Shown piece by piece: positions 26,335-34,600 of a stretch of DNA of 64,000 nucleotides. A program made the position numbers and the translations under genes. Positions within the stretch are counted from its first letter, which is position 1. Each line of letters opens with the position of its first letter. The stretch spans positions 1 through 64,000 of the forward strand of contig JAIYCV010000023.1 in assembly GCA_027487845.1 (NCBI GenBank). The letters run 5' to 3'. Origin of the DNA: Flammeovirgaceae bacterium (GTDB lineage: Bacteria > Bacteroidota > Bacteroidia > Cytophagales > Cyclobacteriaceae). The notes beneath the pieces were generated by a model that was given only the letters and a program-made list of their open reading frames with translations, had not been told where the DNA came from and did not search any database.

Positions 26335-26353
26335 ACAAAATCTCTTGCACCTG

Positions 26354-28981
26354 ATGAAATTCCATCCACCAAAATTTCCCCTCCGCTTCCTCGCTTGGTT
26401 TTGCCCGCCAAGCTTGTATGAAAGTATTGAAGGCGATTTGTTAGAACAATTTGAAGAAGACGTGCAAAACCTAGATGTAATAAGGGCGAAGCTGAGATTG
26501 CTACTGAATGTGCTCAGGTTCTTTAGACCAGCGATTTTATTGAGGAATAAGTTTTATGTGGAACTAAATCAAAGTTATATGTATAAAAGCTATTTCAAAA
26601 TTATGGTACGCCATCTGGTGAAGCAAAGGTTCTATTCTACCATCACAATTTTAGGATTGACTGTTGGTATCACGTTCGCTTTGCTCATTGGCATTTTTAT
26701 TTGGGATGAAATGCAAGTGAACACTAGCCTCAAAGACATTGATCGCCTTTACTTGATGGAAACCAAGTATAAAGCCACCGAAGGAAATCAACCTCCGTTT
26801 TTCGTGCCGGCTCTATTGGGTCAACAAGCTATCGAGCAATACCCCACAGTTTTTGAAAAATACTATCGCTTTCGTGATCGCAACATCACTGTTTCTAAAG
26901 GGGACAAACATTTCCGTACACAAAGTATGATTGGCGATTCTACCTTCTTCGAAATGTTCGGGTTCCCCGTTTTGTATGGCAATGCCGCCAATGCGTTGAA
27001 CAGCCCTAACTCCATTGTGATTACCGAAAAAATAGCACGACAGTATTTTAATAGAACAGATGTTGTGGGTGAAACACTAACCTTAAGTACCGAGGTAAGC
27101 GGACAAAAGGAGCATTTGATTACCGCGGTGATAGCCAATGTTCAGAAAAAGAACTCCGTAACAGATTTTATGAATTCAGATGCTCAAGTATTTTTGCCAC
27201 AAGACAGCCGTACAGATTTTAACCTAGGGTTTCAAGACGAGTGGAACACAAGTATCATTACATATATCAAGCTTACTCCACTCGCATCGCCTATTGAAGC
27301 GAAGGCTATCCTCAACAAAATATTGTTGAAGGATGCTCCTAAATCCATCAGCGAAAATAAAATGATTGAACTAAGTCCACTGAAAAATTATTACTTGGTA
27401 ACTAATCATGGAGTCGTTCAAAAGCTTATCGCGTCACTTACCGTAATTGCGCTGTTCATACTGCTGCTTGCTGTGGCTAACTTTATCAATATATCAATTG
27501 CCAATTCCTTTTCCAGGTTGAAAGAAGTAGGCGTGCGCAAAGTGATAGGAGGTGTAAAGAGGCAGGTATTGGTACAATTTATTTCTGAGTCGTTGCTGCT
27601 TGCTATATTTTCTGGCAGTCTAGCGCTGTGTTTTTATGAAATGCTGCGGGGCTATTTCGGTGAGGTTTTGGCTGTATCATTACCGAGCATACTTGAAATG
27701 AATTCTTATTTTTGGTTTGTGGTTGGCATTGGCATATTGCTAATTGGTCTACTGGCCGGGTTTTACCCTTCTCTTTATTTGTCTTCTGCAGAAACTATTG
27801 AATCGCTCAAAGCAAAGTTTAAGTCTGTAAAAGGTATGATCCATTTTTCACGGAGCTTGGTAGGCTTCCAGTTTCTGGTTGCCATTTTTGTTTTAGTAGT
27901 TTCGCTCATTATGTCTCATCAGATTTCCTTTTTCATGGAAGCCGATTTAGGCTACGATAAATCGAACGTATTGATCGTATCGTCTGTTCCACGAATGTGG
28001 ACGGAAGAAGGAATGAATAAAATGGATCAGGCCAAAGAAGAGTTCCTGAAATCGTCAAAAATAAAATCTGTTTCTCTTTCTTGGGGGTCACCTAATTTTC
28101 AATTCGAACCGTTCAGCGCAAATATCAACCTCTCTGGTCAACCTATTGAAAAAGGAGTACTAACCACCCTGGCCGCAGCCGATGAAGATTACGCCAACGT
28201 CTATGGATTGAGAATTTTACAAGGAAAATTTTTCTTTGATGGTACGGAGAATTTTCAAGCGAATCGATTGGTGTTAAATGAATCTGCTCAAAAGGCGTTG
28301 TCTGCAAAAGTTGGGGATAAATTGAAAATACAATTTTCTGATAAAGAGTTTACCGTTGTTGGGGTGGTTAAAGATTTTCATTTTGAATCGATGCGTGAGC
28401 GAGTAAAGCCTGTGGCGTTTACCCATAATCGCGACTTCCAAGCTTTTCGGTTTTTCTCGTTCAAATTAAATCCTGGCAATATTTCTGAATCTATCACTGA
28501 GTTGGAGAACCTTTGGAAGTCGTTGTTTCCAAATGATCCCTTTGTGTATTCATTCAGCGATGAACGATTGGCCATTGCATATCAAACCGAACTTCGGCTT
28601 AAAAAGGCTTCCGCCATTGCCGTTGTCCTAATAATTTTCATTGTATTGACAGGCGTACTGGGTTTGGTTTCATTGAGCGTTGCTAAAAGAAACAAGGAGA
28701 TTGGTATCCGAAAAGTATTGGGTGCTTCGGCTTCAAACATTTTGATTTTGATTTCTCGCGAGTATGCAATTTTGATGGCCTTTTCATTTGCAATAGGTGT
28801 GCCAGTTAGCTACCTGTTTGTTTCGCAGTGGCTAAAGGGTTTTGCTTATCATATGGATTTGAGCGGATGGATGTTTATCATTCCTATGCTTGTTCTTTTT
28901 GGGATAACAACACTCATTGTTTGTGCTCAGTCTTTTAAGACGGCTATGGCCGATCCCGCTAAATCTCTAAAGTATGAATAA
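26354..28981 (+). CDS. FtsX/MacB-like permease 2 with prefix domain
   Basis: An 875-residue protein with the same plan as permease 1: prefix (about 8-70; FCPPSLYESIEGDLLEQFEE), MacB core, FtsX segment (GVRKVIGG), second core and second FtsX segment (NKEIGIRKVLGAS). The ATG at 26354 is chosen over an upstream TTG. The prefix DNA is nearly identical to that of permease 3, although the rest is only distantly related. It overlaps permease 3 by 8 bp, so the two are co-translated and may form a heterodimer (inference). No ATPase is adjacent. Confidence 0.88.
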   Translation: MKFHPPKFPLRFLAWFCPPSLYESIEGDLLEQFEEDVQNLDVIRAKLRLLLNVLRFFRPAILLRNKFYVELNQSYMYKSYFKIMVRHLVKQRFYSTITILGLTVGITFALLIGIFIWDEMQVNTSLKDIDRLYLMETKYKATEGNQPPFFVPALLGQQAIEQYPTVFEKYYRFRDRNITVSKGDKHFRTQSMIGDSTFFEMFGFPVLYGNAANALNSPNSIVITEKIARQYFNRTDVVGETLTLSTEVSGQKEHLITAVIANVQKKNSVTDFMNSDAQVFLPQDSRTDFNLGFQDEWNTSIITYIKLTPLASPIEAKAILNKILLKDAPKSISENKMIELSPLKNYYLVTNHGVVQKLIASLTVIALFILLLAVANFINISIANSFSRLKEVGVRKVIGGVKRQVLVQFISESLLLAIFSGSLALCFYEMLRGYFGEVLAVSLPSILEMNSYFWFVVGIGILLIGLLAGFYPSLYLSSAETIESLKAKFKSVKGMIHFSRSLVGFQFLVAIFVLVVSLIMSHQISFFMEADLGYDKSNVLIVSSVPRMWTEEGMNKMDQAKEEFLKSSKIKSVSLSWGSPNFQFEPFSANINLSGQPIEKGVLTTLAAADEDYANVYGLRILQGKFFFDGTENFQANRLVLNESAQKALSAKVGDKLKIQFSDKEFTVVGVVKDFHFESMRERVKPVAFTHNRDFQAFRFFSFKLNPGNISESITELENLWKSLFPNDPFVYSFSDERLAIAYQTELRLKKASAIAVVLIIFIVLTGVLGLVSLSVAKRNKEIGIRKVLGASASNILILISREYAILMAFSFAIGVPVSYLFVSQWLKGFAYHMDLSGWMFIIPMLVLFGITTLIVCAQSFKTAMADPAKSLKYE

Positions 28982-31577
28982 GCATAAGCCACCTCTCCTC
29001 GCCCTTCGCTTCCTCGCTTGGTTTTGCCCGCCAAGCTTGTACGAAAGCATTGAAGGCGATTTGTTAGAACAGTTTGAAGAAGACGTACAAAACCTAGATG
29101 TAACAAGGGCGAAGCGAAAACTGCTATGGAATGTAATTAAGTTCTTTAGGCCGGGGATTTTATTGAGGAATAAATTTTCAACAAACATAATCGACAATTT
29201 TATGCTATTCAATTACTTTAAAGTGGCTTCGCGCTTAATAATTCGCAACAAAACCTATTCAGCTATTACTGTTTTTGGGTTGGCCTTTGGCCTGTCGAGT
29301 GCCATCCTGCTATTCCTTTGGATACACAAGGAATTTACCTACGATCAGTTTCATACAGATAAAGACAGAATCTTTGTTGCGTGGAATCGTGAATTGGATA
29401 AAGGTCAAATAAACTGTTGGCTTACTACTCCACGTGTTTTAGCACCCACACTTACACAAGAATATTCAGCCATTGAAAGTGCCGTTAGCTATGGTGCATA
29501 TGGCTCGAAACATTTATTCACGGCTGGCGAAAAAAGGGTTGTAAAAAATACTGGTGTGTTTGTTGATGCACCGTTTCTCACCATGTTTTCATTTCCGTTG
29601 TTGAAAGGCGATGCACCAAAAGCATTGACCAACTCCAATTCGATTGTACTGACAGAAAGTTTTGCAAAACAATTGTTTGGCGATAAGGAAGCCTTTGGCG
29701 AAACGTTAACAATTGGTGAATCGGGTTATACTTTTCCTTTTACAATTACTGGTATTTTAAAAGACTTGCCCGACAGCACCGATTTTCGGTTTGACTATCT
29801 TTTGACTTGGGGATTTTTAGAAAGCTTGGGCGAAAAAGATACCCATTGGGGAAATAACTCAGTGAAAACGTATATCAAGTTGAAAGAAGGAGAAAACATA
29901 GATTCCTTTAACCAGACTATAAAAGATACTGCAAAACCACACTTGGAAGCAGGAAGCACCGTAGAGTATTTTGCCTATCCGTTAACCAAGATGCGGTTGT
30001 ACTCGCGATTTGAAAATGGTGTTCAATCTGGAGGCCGCATAACAATTATTCGTATGCTTGGCATACTAGGAGTTTGTTTGGTCGTAATTGCCTGCATCAA
30101 TTTTGTAAATCTCAGCACGGCACGGGCGCAGAAGCGAGCCAAAGAAATTGGAATTCGAAAAGTAACAGGCGCGATGCGCCTCTCGTTGATCGCTCAATTT
30201 TTGTGCGAATCCATCTTGATCGCGTCTTGTGCTGGATTATTTTCTATCCTCATTGTTTACTTTACAATTCCATCTTTCGGTTCATTAGTGAATCAGCCGT
30301 TGACATTGGAATTTGATAATCTCGCTTTCTGGTTAACATTCATCTTGCTCGTGTTGGTCGTTGGAATTTTAGCGGGCGGCTACCCCGCGCTTTATCTTTC
30401 TTCTTTTCAACCGATTCGCGTGCTCACAGGCGCACCAATCACGCGAGCCAGCCGTAATACACTCCGACAAATGCTTGTCGTATCTCAATTTGGATTTGCC
30501 GTGGTGATGATCGTTTCGGTGATCGTTATCCGTAATCAAATTGAATTCGTTCAAAATAGAGAAGCTGGCTATGCCAAAAATGGTCTCATCTATCTTCCTC
30601 TCACAGGTGATTTGGAAAAAAATTATCGCGCTTATAAAAATGAACTCGTTTCATCGGGTGTGGCCACTTCGGTGACAAAAACAAGTGCACCGATAACAGA
30701 ACATTGGAGCAACACAAATGTAATTGAATGGAATGGCAAAGATCCGCTGGACAAGACATCTGTAGAGCGGTTTAATGTAGACGCAGACATTGTCGCCACG
30801 GCAGGCTTGAAAATTGTTCAAGGAAGAGATATTGATCTACTTTTTCCTAATGACTCTACTGCGGTTCTTTTGAATGAAGCTGCTGTGAAACTAATGGGCT
30901 TTAAACAACCCGTTGGCGAAATCATTATTGACAATGACATTGAATGGCACGTAGTAGGTGTAGTAAAAGATTTTGTTTTGGCCTCTCCGTATCAAAAAAT
31001 TTCCCCGATGGTTCTTCAAGGTGGCAAAAAGAAAATGTTTGGTGCTATTCATATTCGCATGAACGCTGATCGTCCCATGCAGCAAAATTTATCTGCAATC
31101 TCAAAACTATTTAAAAAATATAATCCCGCTTATCCATTTGAGTATCATTTTGTGGATGAAGAATACCAATACAAGTTTAATGATCTCCGAACCACTCTCA
31201 CCATAGCAAGCCTTTTTGGTTTCATAGCCATCTTCATTTCATGCCTAGGACTGCTGGGGCTTTCTACGTTTATGATCGAATCGCGCGTAAAAGAAATTAG
31301 CATACGCAAAGTGATGGGTGGTTCCGTCAGCAGTATCGTTAAATTTTTAAGTGTGGATGCCTTGAAGCCAATTGTGGTTGCCATTGTATTATTCAGCCCG
31401 ATGGCATGGTGGGCGATGAACTGGTGGCTGCAATCTTTCGATTACCGCATTTCGCTTGAACTTTGGGTTTTCCTTTTTTCTGGAGCCATTATTTTAACAA
31501 TTGCCTTAATAACGGTAACCTGGCAAACAATAGGTGCAGCGCGCGAAAATCCCGTAAAAAGCTTACGGGCTAATTAG
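28974..31577 (+). CDS. FtsX/MacB-like permease 3 with prefix domain
   Basis: An 867-residue duplicated permease with a prefix (about 11-72), MacB-type core 1, FtsX segment 1 (AKEIGIRKVTGA), core 2 and FtsX segment 2 (VKEISIRKVMGGS). The start overlaps the end of permease 2 by 8 bp. A copy of the palindromic repeat lies 14 bases after its stop. Like its sisters it lacks an ATP-binding partner in the window. Substrate unknown. Confidence 0.88.
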   Translation: MNKHKPPLLALRFLAWFCPPSLYESIEGDLLEQFEEDVQNLDVTRAKRKLLWNVIKFFRPGILLRNKFSTNIIDNFMLFNYFKVASRLIIRNKTYSAITVFGLAFGLSSAILLFLWIHKEFTYDQFHTDKDRIFVAWNRELDKGQINCWLTTPRVLAPTLTQEYSAIESAVSYGAYGSKHLFTAGEKRVVKNTGVFVDAPFLTMFSFPLLKGDAPKALTNSNSIVLTESFAKQLFGDKEAFGETLTIGESGYTFPFTITGILKDLPDSTDFRFDYLLTWGFLESLGEKDTHWGNNSVKTYIKLKEGENIDSFNQTIKDTAKPHLEAGSTVEYFAYPLTKMRLYSRFENGVQSGGRITIIRMLGILGVCLVVIACINFVNLSTARAQKRAKEIGIRKVTGAMRLSLIAQFLCESILIASCAGLFSILIVYFTIPSFGSLVNQPLTLEFDNLAFWLTFILLVLVVGILAGGYPALYLSSFQPIRVLTGAPITRASRNTLRQMLVVSQFGFAVVMIVSVIVIRNQIEFVQNREAGYAKNGLIYLPLTGDLEKNYRAYKNELVSSGVATSVTKTSAPITEHWSNTNVIEWNGKDPLDKTSVERFNVDADIVATAGLKIVQGRDIDLLFPNDSTAVLLNEAAVKLMGFKQPVGEIIIDNDIEWHVVGVVKDFVLASPYQKISPMVLQGGKKKMFGAIHIRMNADRPMQQNLSAISKLFKKYNPAYPFEYHFVDEEYQYKFNDLRTTLTIASLFGFIAIFISCLGLLGLSTFMIESRVKEISIRKVMGGSVSSIVKFLSVDALKPIVVAIVLFSPMAWWAMNWWLQSFDYRISLELWVFLFSGAIILTIALITVTWQTIGAARENPVKSLRAN

Positions 31578-31637: not shown

Positions 31638-33313
31638 TCAATAATCAGTATCCAACCCTAAACGTTCCTTTAACTCCAATAAGATGGGATTTTTTTCGGC
31701 TAAGTAATCAAACTTTTCTTTGTTGGTGTAAGCCACACGTTTGGTTTCGATGGCTTGCATCACTCCAAAAACATTGATGTTGCTGTTGTTTAGTTTATCG
31801 CGTAAGTAGGCCGTAAGCTGAGTGCGAATGCCTTGCAACAGTGGTTCTTCTACCAAGTTGGCTAACTGTATGGTAATTTTGTTTTCGTTCAGCTCAAAGC
31901 CGCGTGTTAATATACTATATTCACCCGCTTGCGTTTTTTTTAGCTCGGCAAATTCATCCCATACTTTTGTGAGGTCTTCAAGGCGGATGGATTTGTTTAC
32001 GGAAACTTTTTCTTGAACCGCCTCTACTACCCTCTCTTCTGCCTTTGCCGTTGGCTTTAATATGTTTTGAAGATTGAGCGTTGACTTGGGTCTCGCGCTT
32101 TCTTTTGGAACAACTGCTGGAGGTGGAGTTGCTGCGGGTACAGCAATAGATTCAGTTTGTTGCTTTTGCTCAGCCGCAGTGGCTGTAATTTTTGGTAAAG
32201 AGTCTAATTCAATTTTTTTTTTAATCCCTCTGTCGAAAGAGCGGTATCAGAGGACTTTAAAACAGAATTAATATGAGCCATCTTCATCAGTGCCAACTCA
32301 ACGGAGAGGCGTTGGTTTTTGCTAGCCTTAAAATGAATGTCGCACTGATTTGAAATAGTGAGCCAAGAAAGCAGAAGCGAAGGTGACGATGCACGCGCTT
32401 GCGACTGATATTTTTGCTTGGTTGCTTCCGGCACTTCCATCAGACTAATGGTGCGGGCGTCTTGCGATACGAGCAAGTTTCTAAAGTGTTCGCTTAGTCC
32501 TGAAATGAAGTTATGACCGTCAAAACCTTTGCGCAAAATTTCATCTAATAATAAAATGGGCTCTGTTGCACTTTCTGCCAGCAGGCCATCGGTTATTTTA
32601 AAGTAATAATCGTAATCCAGAATGTGCAAGTTGTTAAGCACATCTTTGAAGGTGACTTGTGAACCCGAAGAGAAGGTAACCATCAAGTCGAAGATGGAGA
32701 GACCATCGCGCAAAGCACCATCTGCTTTTTGGGCAATCAAATGCAAAGCTTCTTCCTCTGCCTTTATTCCCTCGCGGTCAGCGACTTTCTTTAGCTGCCT
32801 TGCAATGTCCGAAACCTGAATTCTATTAAAATCAAAAATCTGGCACCGCGAAAGAATGGTAGGAATGACCTTGTGCTTTTCGGTGGTGGCGAGAATAAAA
32901 ATTGCATAGGAGGGAGGTTCTTCTAGCGTCTTCAAAAAAGCATTGAAGGCCGAATTCGATAACATATGAACCTCGTCAATAATATAGACTTTGTACTTTC
33001 CAAATTGAGGTGGATAGCGAACTTGATCAATCAGATTTCGGATGTCTTCAACCGAGTTGTTAGAAGCGGCATCCAACTCGAAGATATTGAGGGAATTGAC
33101 CTCCACTTTCTCTTCAAAGCCATTGATCATGCGCGCCACAATCCGGGCGCAGGTTGTTTTTCCTACTCCCCGAGGGCCACAGAAAAGTAATGCTTGCGCC
33201 AGCTTATTATTGTCAATCGCATTTTTTAGCGTGGTGGTAATGTGCTCTTGCCCAACCACTTCCTCAAAACCGAGTGGCCTATATTTACGCGCTGAAACAA
33301 CGAAGCTTTCCAT
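31638..33313 (-). CDS. dnaX: DNA polymerase III tau/gamma subunit, requires -1 frameshift
   Basis: Clamp-loader ATPase of the replisome. The zero frame from ATG 33313 gives 369 residues with Walker A GPRGVGKT (46-53), DEVH (113-116), the sensor segment ATTEKHKVIPTILSRCQ and the AAA+ lid/collar, then ends at TAG 32204-32206. Two codons before that stop is a run of ten A. In the -1 frame the reading continues for about 190 more residues: a Pro/Lys-rich linker, then a tau-like C-terminal domain (LEDLTKVWDEFAELKKTQ..., ending LGLDTDY). A one-base slip therefore yields a 558-residue tau-like protein, and no slip yields a gamma-like one. The four-Cys zinc module usual after the ATP site is absent. 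A TTG four codons upstream is a less likely start. Confidence 0.88.
32213..32222 (-). other. A10 slippery tract in dnaX
   Basis: On the minus strand the frame reads tta aaa aaa aaa ttg aat tag. The tract contains A-AAA-AAA heptamers suitable for -1 ribosomal slippage or transcriptional slippage. An AGAGGGA motif lies two bases upstream of the tt-A10 block, and a small cagcc/ggctg hairpin follows about 40 bases later. Confidence 0.75.
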
Positions 33314-33987: not shown

Positions 33988-34588
33988 ATGAGAACAATTA
34001 TATTGATTTTTATTTTGTTATTCTCATGCTCAGCACCCGAGTATAAGACGTGTGAATTTATGACAACCGACAACGAGCTAAAACTATATCACGACATCCT
34101 AACTGAACTCATCGAGCAACATTTTCTTAATAGTTTTTTAGCAAAAGTATCGGGAGAATTAGAAGGTAAGTATCCAGCAATATTGGACTTCTCCGACACA
34201 GCTGCTTTTCGAAAAGATCAAGACATCGATTTTCTCACGACATCGAAAGCAGAACCAAAATATTAGAACGACATTAAAGCCTTTTTTTTTTTTTTTTTCT
34301 TCAAGATGGAAGGCTGTAGCAGATACTATTGCCAAGTCTCAGACCAAATATACTAGCAAGAGTTTTAAACTTTGTACTTCAAAACTTGTGGCATGCGAAC
34401 GTTTTAATGAATCGGACATTGGTGTGGTAAGCTTATCAAAAGTATTCATGAACGACAAAAGAGATCAAGGACTTTTGTATTATGAGTTTACTTGCGGAGG
34501 AAAATGCGGCATGGGCGAAATAGTCCTCGTTCAATATATCAAAAAGCGGTGGACGATAAAGAAAGCACTGAATTTATGGATATCGTGA
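33988..34588 (+). pseudogene. Frameshifted small lipoprotein gene with T17 tract
   Basis: The first part (33988-34266, 92 codons) starts with a lipoprotein signal (MRTIILIFILLFSCSAPEYK). The second part is open in another frame to a stop at 34586-34588 and ends EFTCGGKCGMGEIVLVQYIKKRW... The second frame is open back through a run of 17 T (34282-34298) and past the first stop. One shift between about 34230 and 34300 would join them into a single protein of roughly 200 residues. Family unknown. It is either a broken gene, a phase-variable one, or an assembly error at the homopolymer. Confidence 0.6.
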
Positions 34589-34600
34589 GATCGAACTACT

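Follow-up and report, generated by a model that had tools for sequence, protein, structure and literature searches.

Introduction

The dnaX gene gives rise to two clamp-loader subunits in several bacteria, and the closest described systems differ in how the second product arises. In Escherichia coli, the ribosome shifts to -1 at A_AAA_AAG, whereas in Thermus thermophilus the slippage is transcriptional and occurs on a run of nine A (PMC5009743, PMC3711429, PMC1088944). A further arrangement is the two-ORF dnaX, in which recoding is needed to make tau. Antonov et al. (2013; PMC3711429) reported 17 such genes from 12 genera, all of the -1 kind. Nine two-ORF dnaX genes carry an A10 run, for which transcriptional realignment was proposed; in the available text of that paper, the dnaX cluster itself has one direction only. 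A single-nucleotide change can swap the roles, as noted in PMC5009743.

Other sources say little about this site. PMC3971599, in the portion available, merely scores dnaX as present or absent, and PMC6847099 does not mention the gene. The literature available to us contained no account of slippage in a dnaX gene of Bacteroidota, but the nine A10 genes, whose names are given in Supplementary Figure S3 of PMC3711429, may include some.

Here we describe the dnaX gene of a member of the Bacteroidota, located in the 64,000-nucleotide stretch of DNA that was analysed (hereafter the window). A first-pass annotation had suggested programmed slippage at an A run, possibly by RNA polymerase, giving gamma-like and tau-like products, and comparison with related genes supports such a reading.

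Results

Layout of the dnaX locus

The dnaX gene of the window lies on the minus strand, as do all of its features given below. The zero frame (32204..33313) starts at 33313 and encodes a gamma-like product of 369 residues, which comprises the AAA+ core, the lid and domain III and ends in LKKKLN. Its stop lies two codons past a run of exactly ten A (32213..32222, T10 on the plus strand), and the sequence directly 3' of the run is TTGAATTAG. This zero-frame stop, a TAG at 32204..32206, is 9 nt 3' of the run. The +1 frame stops at once too, at a TGA (32209..32211) 4 nt 3' of the run, so that both non-tau frames terminate at the site. The -1 frame is open across the junction and runs for 190 codons (31641..32210), through a linker and a C-terminal domain, up to a TGA at 31638..31640. 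These coordinates confirm the earlier description of a 369-residue zero frame and of a -1 frame that continues for about 190 residues and ends normally.

Profile searches match both parts to DnaX families. On the zero-frame product, Pfam places DNA_pol3_delta2 (E 1.8e-35), DNAX_ATPase_lid (E 1.3e-12) and DNA_pol3_gamma3 (E 8.7e-6), and the NCBIfam family TIGR02397 matches with E 2.1e-113. A second NCBIfam family, PRK14971, covers both pieces: its first 367 positions match the zero-frame product (E 4.3e-190, 633.6 bits), and positions 426-613 of 614 match the -1 part (E 9.2e-22, 77.6 bits). The curated cut-off of 685 bits is above the score of either piece taken singly. The zero-frame product falls below it because the later positions of the profile have no counterpart there.

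Runs of ten or more A are rare in the 4.5 Mb genome to which the window belongs. The 68 overlapping pattern matches correspond to 21 places, 20 of which were inspected, the other one being on contig C42.

DnaX cores are known with a cysteine zinc module. We notice that the core in the window (33050-33160) seems to be without it, with no Cys cluster after the P-loop. In the match to solved DnaX chains, the window's protein is approximately 13 residues the shorter.

The arrangement is shared by the genus and by named relatives

A dnaX search of 39 genomes returned 22 same-genus loci, namely the window's own and those of 21 of 24 relatives. In the relatives G001, G010 and G021, the matches reached just about 1e-12 to 1e-14, which is the level of other AAA+ genes, and no dnaX locus was assigned. 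In 20 of the 22 loci, the window included, an A10 or A11 run is combined with the early stop and with a tau part in frame -1 (18 with A10, 2 with A11). The alignment of relatives that the first-pass annotation had called for thus shows the A run and the early stop to be conserved. The remaining two loci have tau in frame 0, one with A9 (L012) and the other with A8 plus an N (L016), and their other frames stop 3 and 11 nt after the run. Among the 20, the locus of one metagenome-assembled genome (MAG), L017, has a tau frame that stops after 148 codons, near its end. A conserved last motif follows just after this stop in another frame, which points to a further break of the frame or to a fault in the assembly.

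Comparison with named relatives puts the window within the Cytophagales, close to Parachryseolinea and Pseudochryseolinea. Overall, 80 named loci were reduced to 75 by duplicate removal, and tau was located in 73. A run with tau in -1 is present in 53 of these and a run with tau in frame 0 in 19; the last one, L054, is of the -1 type without a run of nine. Named loci of the -1 type belong to Algoriphagus, Belliella, Roseivirga, Fulvivirga, Echinicola and Lunatimonas, and those of the frame-0 type to Dyadobacter, Rhabdobacter and Sphingobacterium. Siphonobacter displays both types, A10 versus A9. The window's own arrangement also occurs in named isolates, which represent the first four of these -1 genera together with Parachryseolinea and Pseudochryseolinea. 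In L054, A7 is followed by GAAG, close to the A_AAA_AAG site of E. coli; this locus is on a MAG contig with a title coverage of 3.8 and is possibly an error.

A long A run and paired stops across the class

The survey was enlarged by 178 genomes drawn evenly from the phylum, 58 genomes of one genus with a +1 gene, and 144 genomes of the class, of which part was inspected. In the 58-genome set, 56 genomes gave a match and 30 new loci were taken. After duplicates were dropped (L113 and five others), 324 loci were classified, with tau located in 317 and no tau located in 7. Two loci needed separate treatment. L208, in which the frame is broken 3' of the run, enters the 317 as a -1 gene and is left out of the tree, the Bacteroidia counts and the counts on initiation and tau openness. 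L231, also within the 317, carries Ns at the site and does not count as +1. Short-frame genes were fetched first, so the phase shares among the fetched loci are not prevalences.

Within 150 nt after domain III, a run of nine or more A is present in 280 of the 317 loci; of 3041 control windows taken elsewhere in these genes, 15 have one. Such a run occurs in 250 of the 270 tau-located Bacteroidia loci, and in 29 of 45 loci from other classes of the phylum, which had been selected in part because their frames are short. Stops in both non-tau frames follow within 30 nt in 270 of the 280 run-bearing genes, compared with 24% of 3890 control points, and in 277 of the 280 the more distant of the two lies closer than the median for control points of that gene. 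A10 is the commonest run length in phases 0 and -1, and runs of 7-8 A are rare (8 of 317 loci).

Selection for lysine was considered as the cause of the run. In run-bearing Bacteroidia genes, other Lys-Lys-Lys stretches are nearly always broken by AAG (102/105), with AAA-AAA-AAA in only 3 of 105, and the run of the slip site falls in all three codon phases. The run is therefore kept as nucleotides rather than as lysines, and the lysine explanation is rejected. Across the genes compared, what is conserved is the nucleotide run together with the paired stops.

The run is missing from a minority of genes. Bacteroidia loci without a run of nine make up 18 of 148 tau-frame-0 genes (one of them L016, with A8 plus an N) versus 2 of 122 shift-needing genes (Fisher p 0.0008, relatedness not corrected for). 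The two -1 genes without such a run are L054, with its A7, and L291, which has none. The first-pass annotation had counted against slippage any relatives that have a single uninterrupted frame and lack the homopolymer. Such genes do occur, in 18 of 270 Bacteroidia loci, and we read this minority as losses in genes that can do without a shift.

The tau frame has switched repeatedly

In the 280 run-bearing genes, the tau frame is 0 in 145, -1 in 130 and +1 in 5; the share of -1 genes (130/317) is raised by the fetching of short-frame genes first and by the inclusion of L208. On a FastTree tree of the core, from which the run was excluded, no fewer than 37 phase changes are required for the 279 run-bearing genes, as against a mean of 96 and a minimum of 84 when the phases are shuffled. 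For A10 genes only, there are 23 changes for 222 genes, versus a shuffled mean of 76. These figures reveal that the phase is inherited, yet often switches.

Some of the switches consist of one A more or less, as in the pairs L174/L178 and L094/L103. The genes L174 (A9) and L178 (A10) are near-identical, with a tree distance of 0.006. Other switches result from indels beside an unchanged A10 (L129/L130, L167/L176), and a miscount of the run cannot explain these. The +1 genes are L125, L230, L276, L278 and L284. L125 (A10, +1) and its neighbour L207 (A11, frame 0) differ at both edges of the run, and in L125 a TAG follows directly after the run. Two of the five +1 genes have A12, for which a miscount is conceivable.

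Constraint and predicted structure of the tau part

In all 134 shift-needing genes with a run (L208 set aside), no stop interrupts the tau frame between the run and its entry into the C-terminal domain. The dN/dS ratio is approximately 0.16 in the tau C-terminal domain, with just 2 usable pairs; the linker gives 0.67 from 54 pairs and the core 0.02 from 5. Judged by the open frame and these codon comparisons, the tau part is under constraint. In the window, the assignment of this part also draws on its match to the tail of PRK14971 and on its predicted structure, in which the block-mean pLDDT is 81-98 from about residue 71 on.

The tau C-terminal domain gave no significant match to the PDB by sequence and none by Foldseek, where E. 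coli tau chains stood at ranks 4 and 5. In a VIA fold comparison the Z was middling, and E. coli tau chains were absent among the 50 matches listed, an absence that carries no weight against the assignment.

Long A/T tracts and neighbouring open frames

The assembly contains A/T tracts of 17, one of them of 20, inside open frames: one in the window (34282-34298), and others at C11:14320, C25:8516, C33:290990 and C39:105619. For the gene with the C11 tract, presumably an M23-like peptidase by its look, relatives carry ordinary codons at this place without a change in length. This single tract therefore looks artefactual, and the A17-A20 tracts as a group may be assembly artefacts. The dnaX run is free of this doubt because relatives share it, but the number of A it has in this genome depends on the assembly.

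Next to the T17 tract of the window, a lipoprotein-like ORF of 92 residues (33988-34266) ends just before the tract, and a 141-codon open frame spans it in another frame. The region 33988-34590 is possibly one gene disturbed by the tract. Elsewhere in the window, two long ORFs that are adjacent and overlap (26345-28981 and 28974-31577) share a near-identical N-terminal stretch, LRFLAWFCPPSLYESIEGDLLEQFEEDVQNLDV. They resemble duplicated permease-type genes.

Discussion

Slippage of RNA polymerase as the favoured reading

We propose that dnaX of the window is a programmed slippage gene, mainly transcriptional, that gives a gamma-like and a tau-like product, and we put the probability of this reading at roughly three in four. 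Slippage as such, its mostly transcriptional nature and the making of both proteins are what we infer from the comparison of genes. In this mechanism, RNA polymerase would slip on the ten-A run and produce mRNAs with differing numbers of A. Those keeping ten A, or shifted to +1, would end within 9 nt past the run and yield the 369-residue clamp-loader subunit. Those with one extra A, or with two fewer, would be read into the -1 frame and yield a tau-like subunit of about 558 residues by arithmetic. The DNA-level frame of tau would matter little, because slippage would fill all three frames. Relatives have moved tau among 0, -1 and +1 and have retained the run together with stops in both other frames.

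Three features lead us to favour RNA polymerase: the length of the run is around 10 rather than 7, stops lie in both other frames, and the direction is not conserved. The last of these, among orthologues, serves as a criterion for transcriptional slippage in PMC3711429, as far as its available text goes.

With less assurance, we lean towards a broader view of dnaX in Bacteroidia as a phase-free gene. Its A10 run would be old, slippage on it would fill three frames, and the tau frame would drift among 0, -1 and +1 in dozens of switches with the run and the non-tau stops kept. The loss of SD recognition may explain the use of the polymerase instead of an SD-stimulated ribosomal route.

Ribosomal frameshifting and its stimulators

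The rival that survives best is -1 ribosomal frameshifting on A_AAA_AAA, which would make tau in the window and gamma in the frame-0 relatives, as in E. coli dnaX. We consider it unlikely as the main source of the second product. The A10 run includes this heptamer, and 275 of the 280 run-bearing genes are of phase 0 or -1, both of which could be served by a -1 shift, so ribosomal slippage could contribute in these genes. In the 2016 review PMC5009743, dnaX genes of the reversed type are discussed as cases of ribosomal frameshifting, and one Chlorobium is named whose stimulators resemble those of E. coli. However, the heptamer needs only seven A, whereas runs of 7-8 A are rare and ten is commonest, and the five +1 genes call for a shift of another kind. 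A ribosomal route also gives no reason for the stop in the third frame. At the window site the run is followed by TTG, so that the E. coli heptamer A_AAA_AAG is absent and A_AAA_AAA alone is present.

Stimulators bear on the same rival. The first-pass annotation had pointed to an AGAGGGA motif just 5' of the run and to a hairpin 3' of it, and both are there: the SD-like motif at 32225..32231, reading from 32231 to 32225 on the minus strand, and a small hairpin, CAGCC-ACTGC-GGCTG, at 32171..32185, 27 nt 3' of the run. Their conservation did not hold up. Among 35 genes of the genus and its near kin, hand-picked from the -1 genes with L017 and L024 left out, 8 have an SD-like motif 5' of the run. 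Overall, 39 of 280 genes have one, versus 154 of 5040 control points. The 60 nt 3' of the window's run have an unremarkable folding z of -0.97, which lends the hairpin no supported function. Over the survey, the mean z of this segment is -0.43 at the site versus -0.07 to -0.23 at controls, with 10.7% of sites and 4-6% of controls below -2.

Across the 280 run-bearing genes we found neither a conserved 5' SD-like motif nor a conserved 3' hairpin, and the two are not supported as general stimulators. Since folding is slightly stronger and SD-like motifs are commoner than at controls, we keep in view that ribosomal stimulators may act in a minority of genes. In the available parts of two further reports, Bacteroidia ribosomes are described as not recognising SD sequences (PMC9976891), and prfB frameshifting as weak and inefficient in Flavobacterium johnsoniae (PMC12421855); both speak against the ribosomal route.

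Separate initiation, phase variation and sequence error

Two overlapping ORFs at the DNA level could also represent a split gene, with gamma and a separately initiated C-terminal protein made with no slippage. Starts for such a protein are scarce. A tau-frame ATG near the junction is present in 4 of the 134 shift-needing genes and any ATG, GTG or TTG in 28 of 134, the window having none, and frame-0 relatives hold the same domains in one open frame. Separate initiation is thus very improbable, and we reject it.

We give just as little credence to phase variation, in which replication slippage would toggle cells between gamma-only and tau-making states. Run length and phase do vary between near-identical genes, as L174 and L178 demonstrate. 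Over long times, however, the phase is stable, with 37 changes in 279 genes compared with about 96 after shuffling, and exactly A10 is found in 222 of the 279 runs. Moreover, tau is expected to be essential, and a third-frame stop would be useless to such a switch.

Least credible of all is a homopolymer miscount in sequencing or assembly, or a pseudogene, which we reject: homopolymers are error-prone and this assembly has odd A17 and A20 tracts elsewhere, but the layout is shared by 20 of the 22 same-genus loci and by named isolates from six genera, and the tau frame stays open into the C-terminal domain in every one of the 134 shift-needing genes with a run.

Meaning of dnaX slippage in the class

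If polymerase slippage is indeed at work, the long clamp-loader subunit would depend on it in about a quarter of the class (33 of 142 matched genomes of the even class draw, by hand count). Single-frame annotation would then show such dnaX genes as broken or shortened. The repeated switching of phase with the run kept amounts to a natural experiment in which the transcriptional and the ribosomal mechanism can be told apart. A related question is whether gamma is wanted in these bacteria, for the site is kept in most genes and lost in some with tau in frame 0.

Comparison with known systems

The first-pass annotation had likened this gene to dnaX of E. coli and of Thermus. The likeness stands for the proposed slippage and fails for polarity, because tau is the zero-frame product there and gamma is the zero-frame product here. 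In E. coli, a single dnaX gene yields these two kinds of protein (PMC5009743, PMC3711429). In addition to its reversed polarity, the window differs from the E. coli gene in having a ten-A run instead of A6G, with no conserved SD motif and a weak 3' folding signal across the relatives.

In Blochmannia vafer and B. floridanus, a homopolymer breaks the dnaX frame and transcriptional slippage was proposed to give tau, as we propose for the window (PMC3017870). The Blochmannia break is, in contrast, located within the part specific to tau, past the slip site of the E. coli type, and belongs to eroding endosymbiont genomes. The available text of that paper holds no description of paired stops making gamma.

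The T. thermophilus gene shares with the window a long run (at least nine A) and stops in both non-tau frames (PMC5009743, PMC1088944). Its polarity, opposite to that of the window, is found in 145 of the 280 run-bearing relatives, which are Thermus-like in this respect.

The closest match is the two-ORF dnaX with A10, which is already known since 2013 (PMC3711429). As in the window, gamma is in frame 0 and ends just past the poly-A, tau is in -1, and the arrangement is conserved in orthologues. While the 17 genes in the available text of that work are all -1, our survey finds tau in three phases, with a third-frame stop as a systematic feature. Apparently new, as features that we did not find in print, are the breadth of the arrangement in Bacteroidia, the repeated switching of phase including +1, and the systematic third-frame stop.
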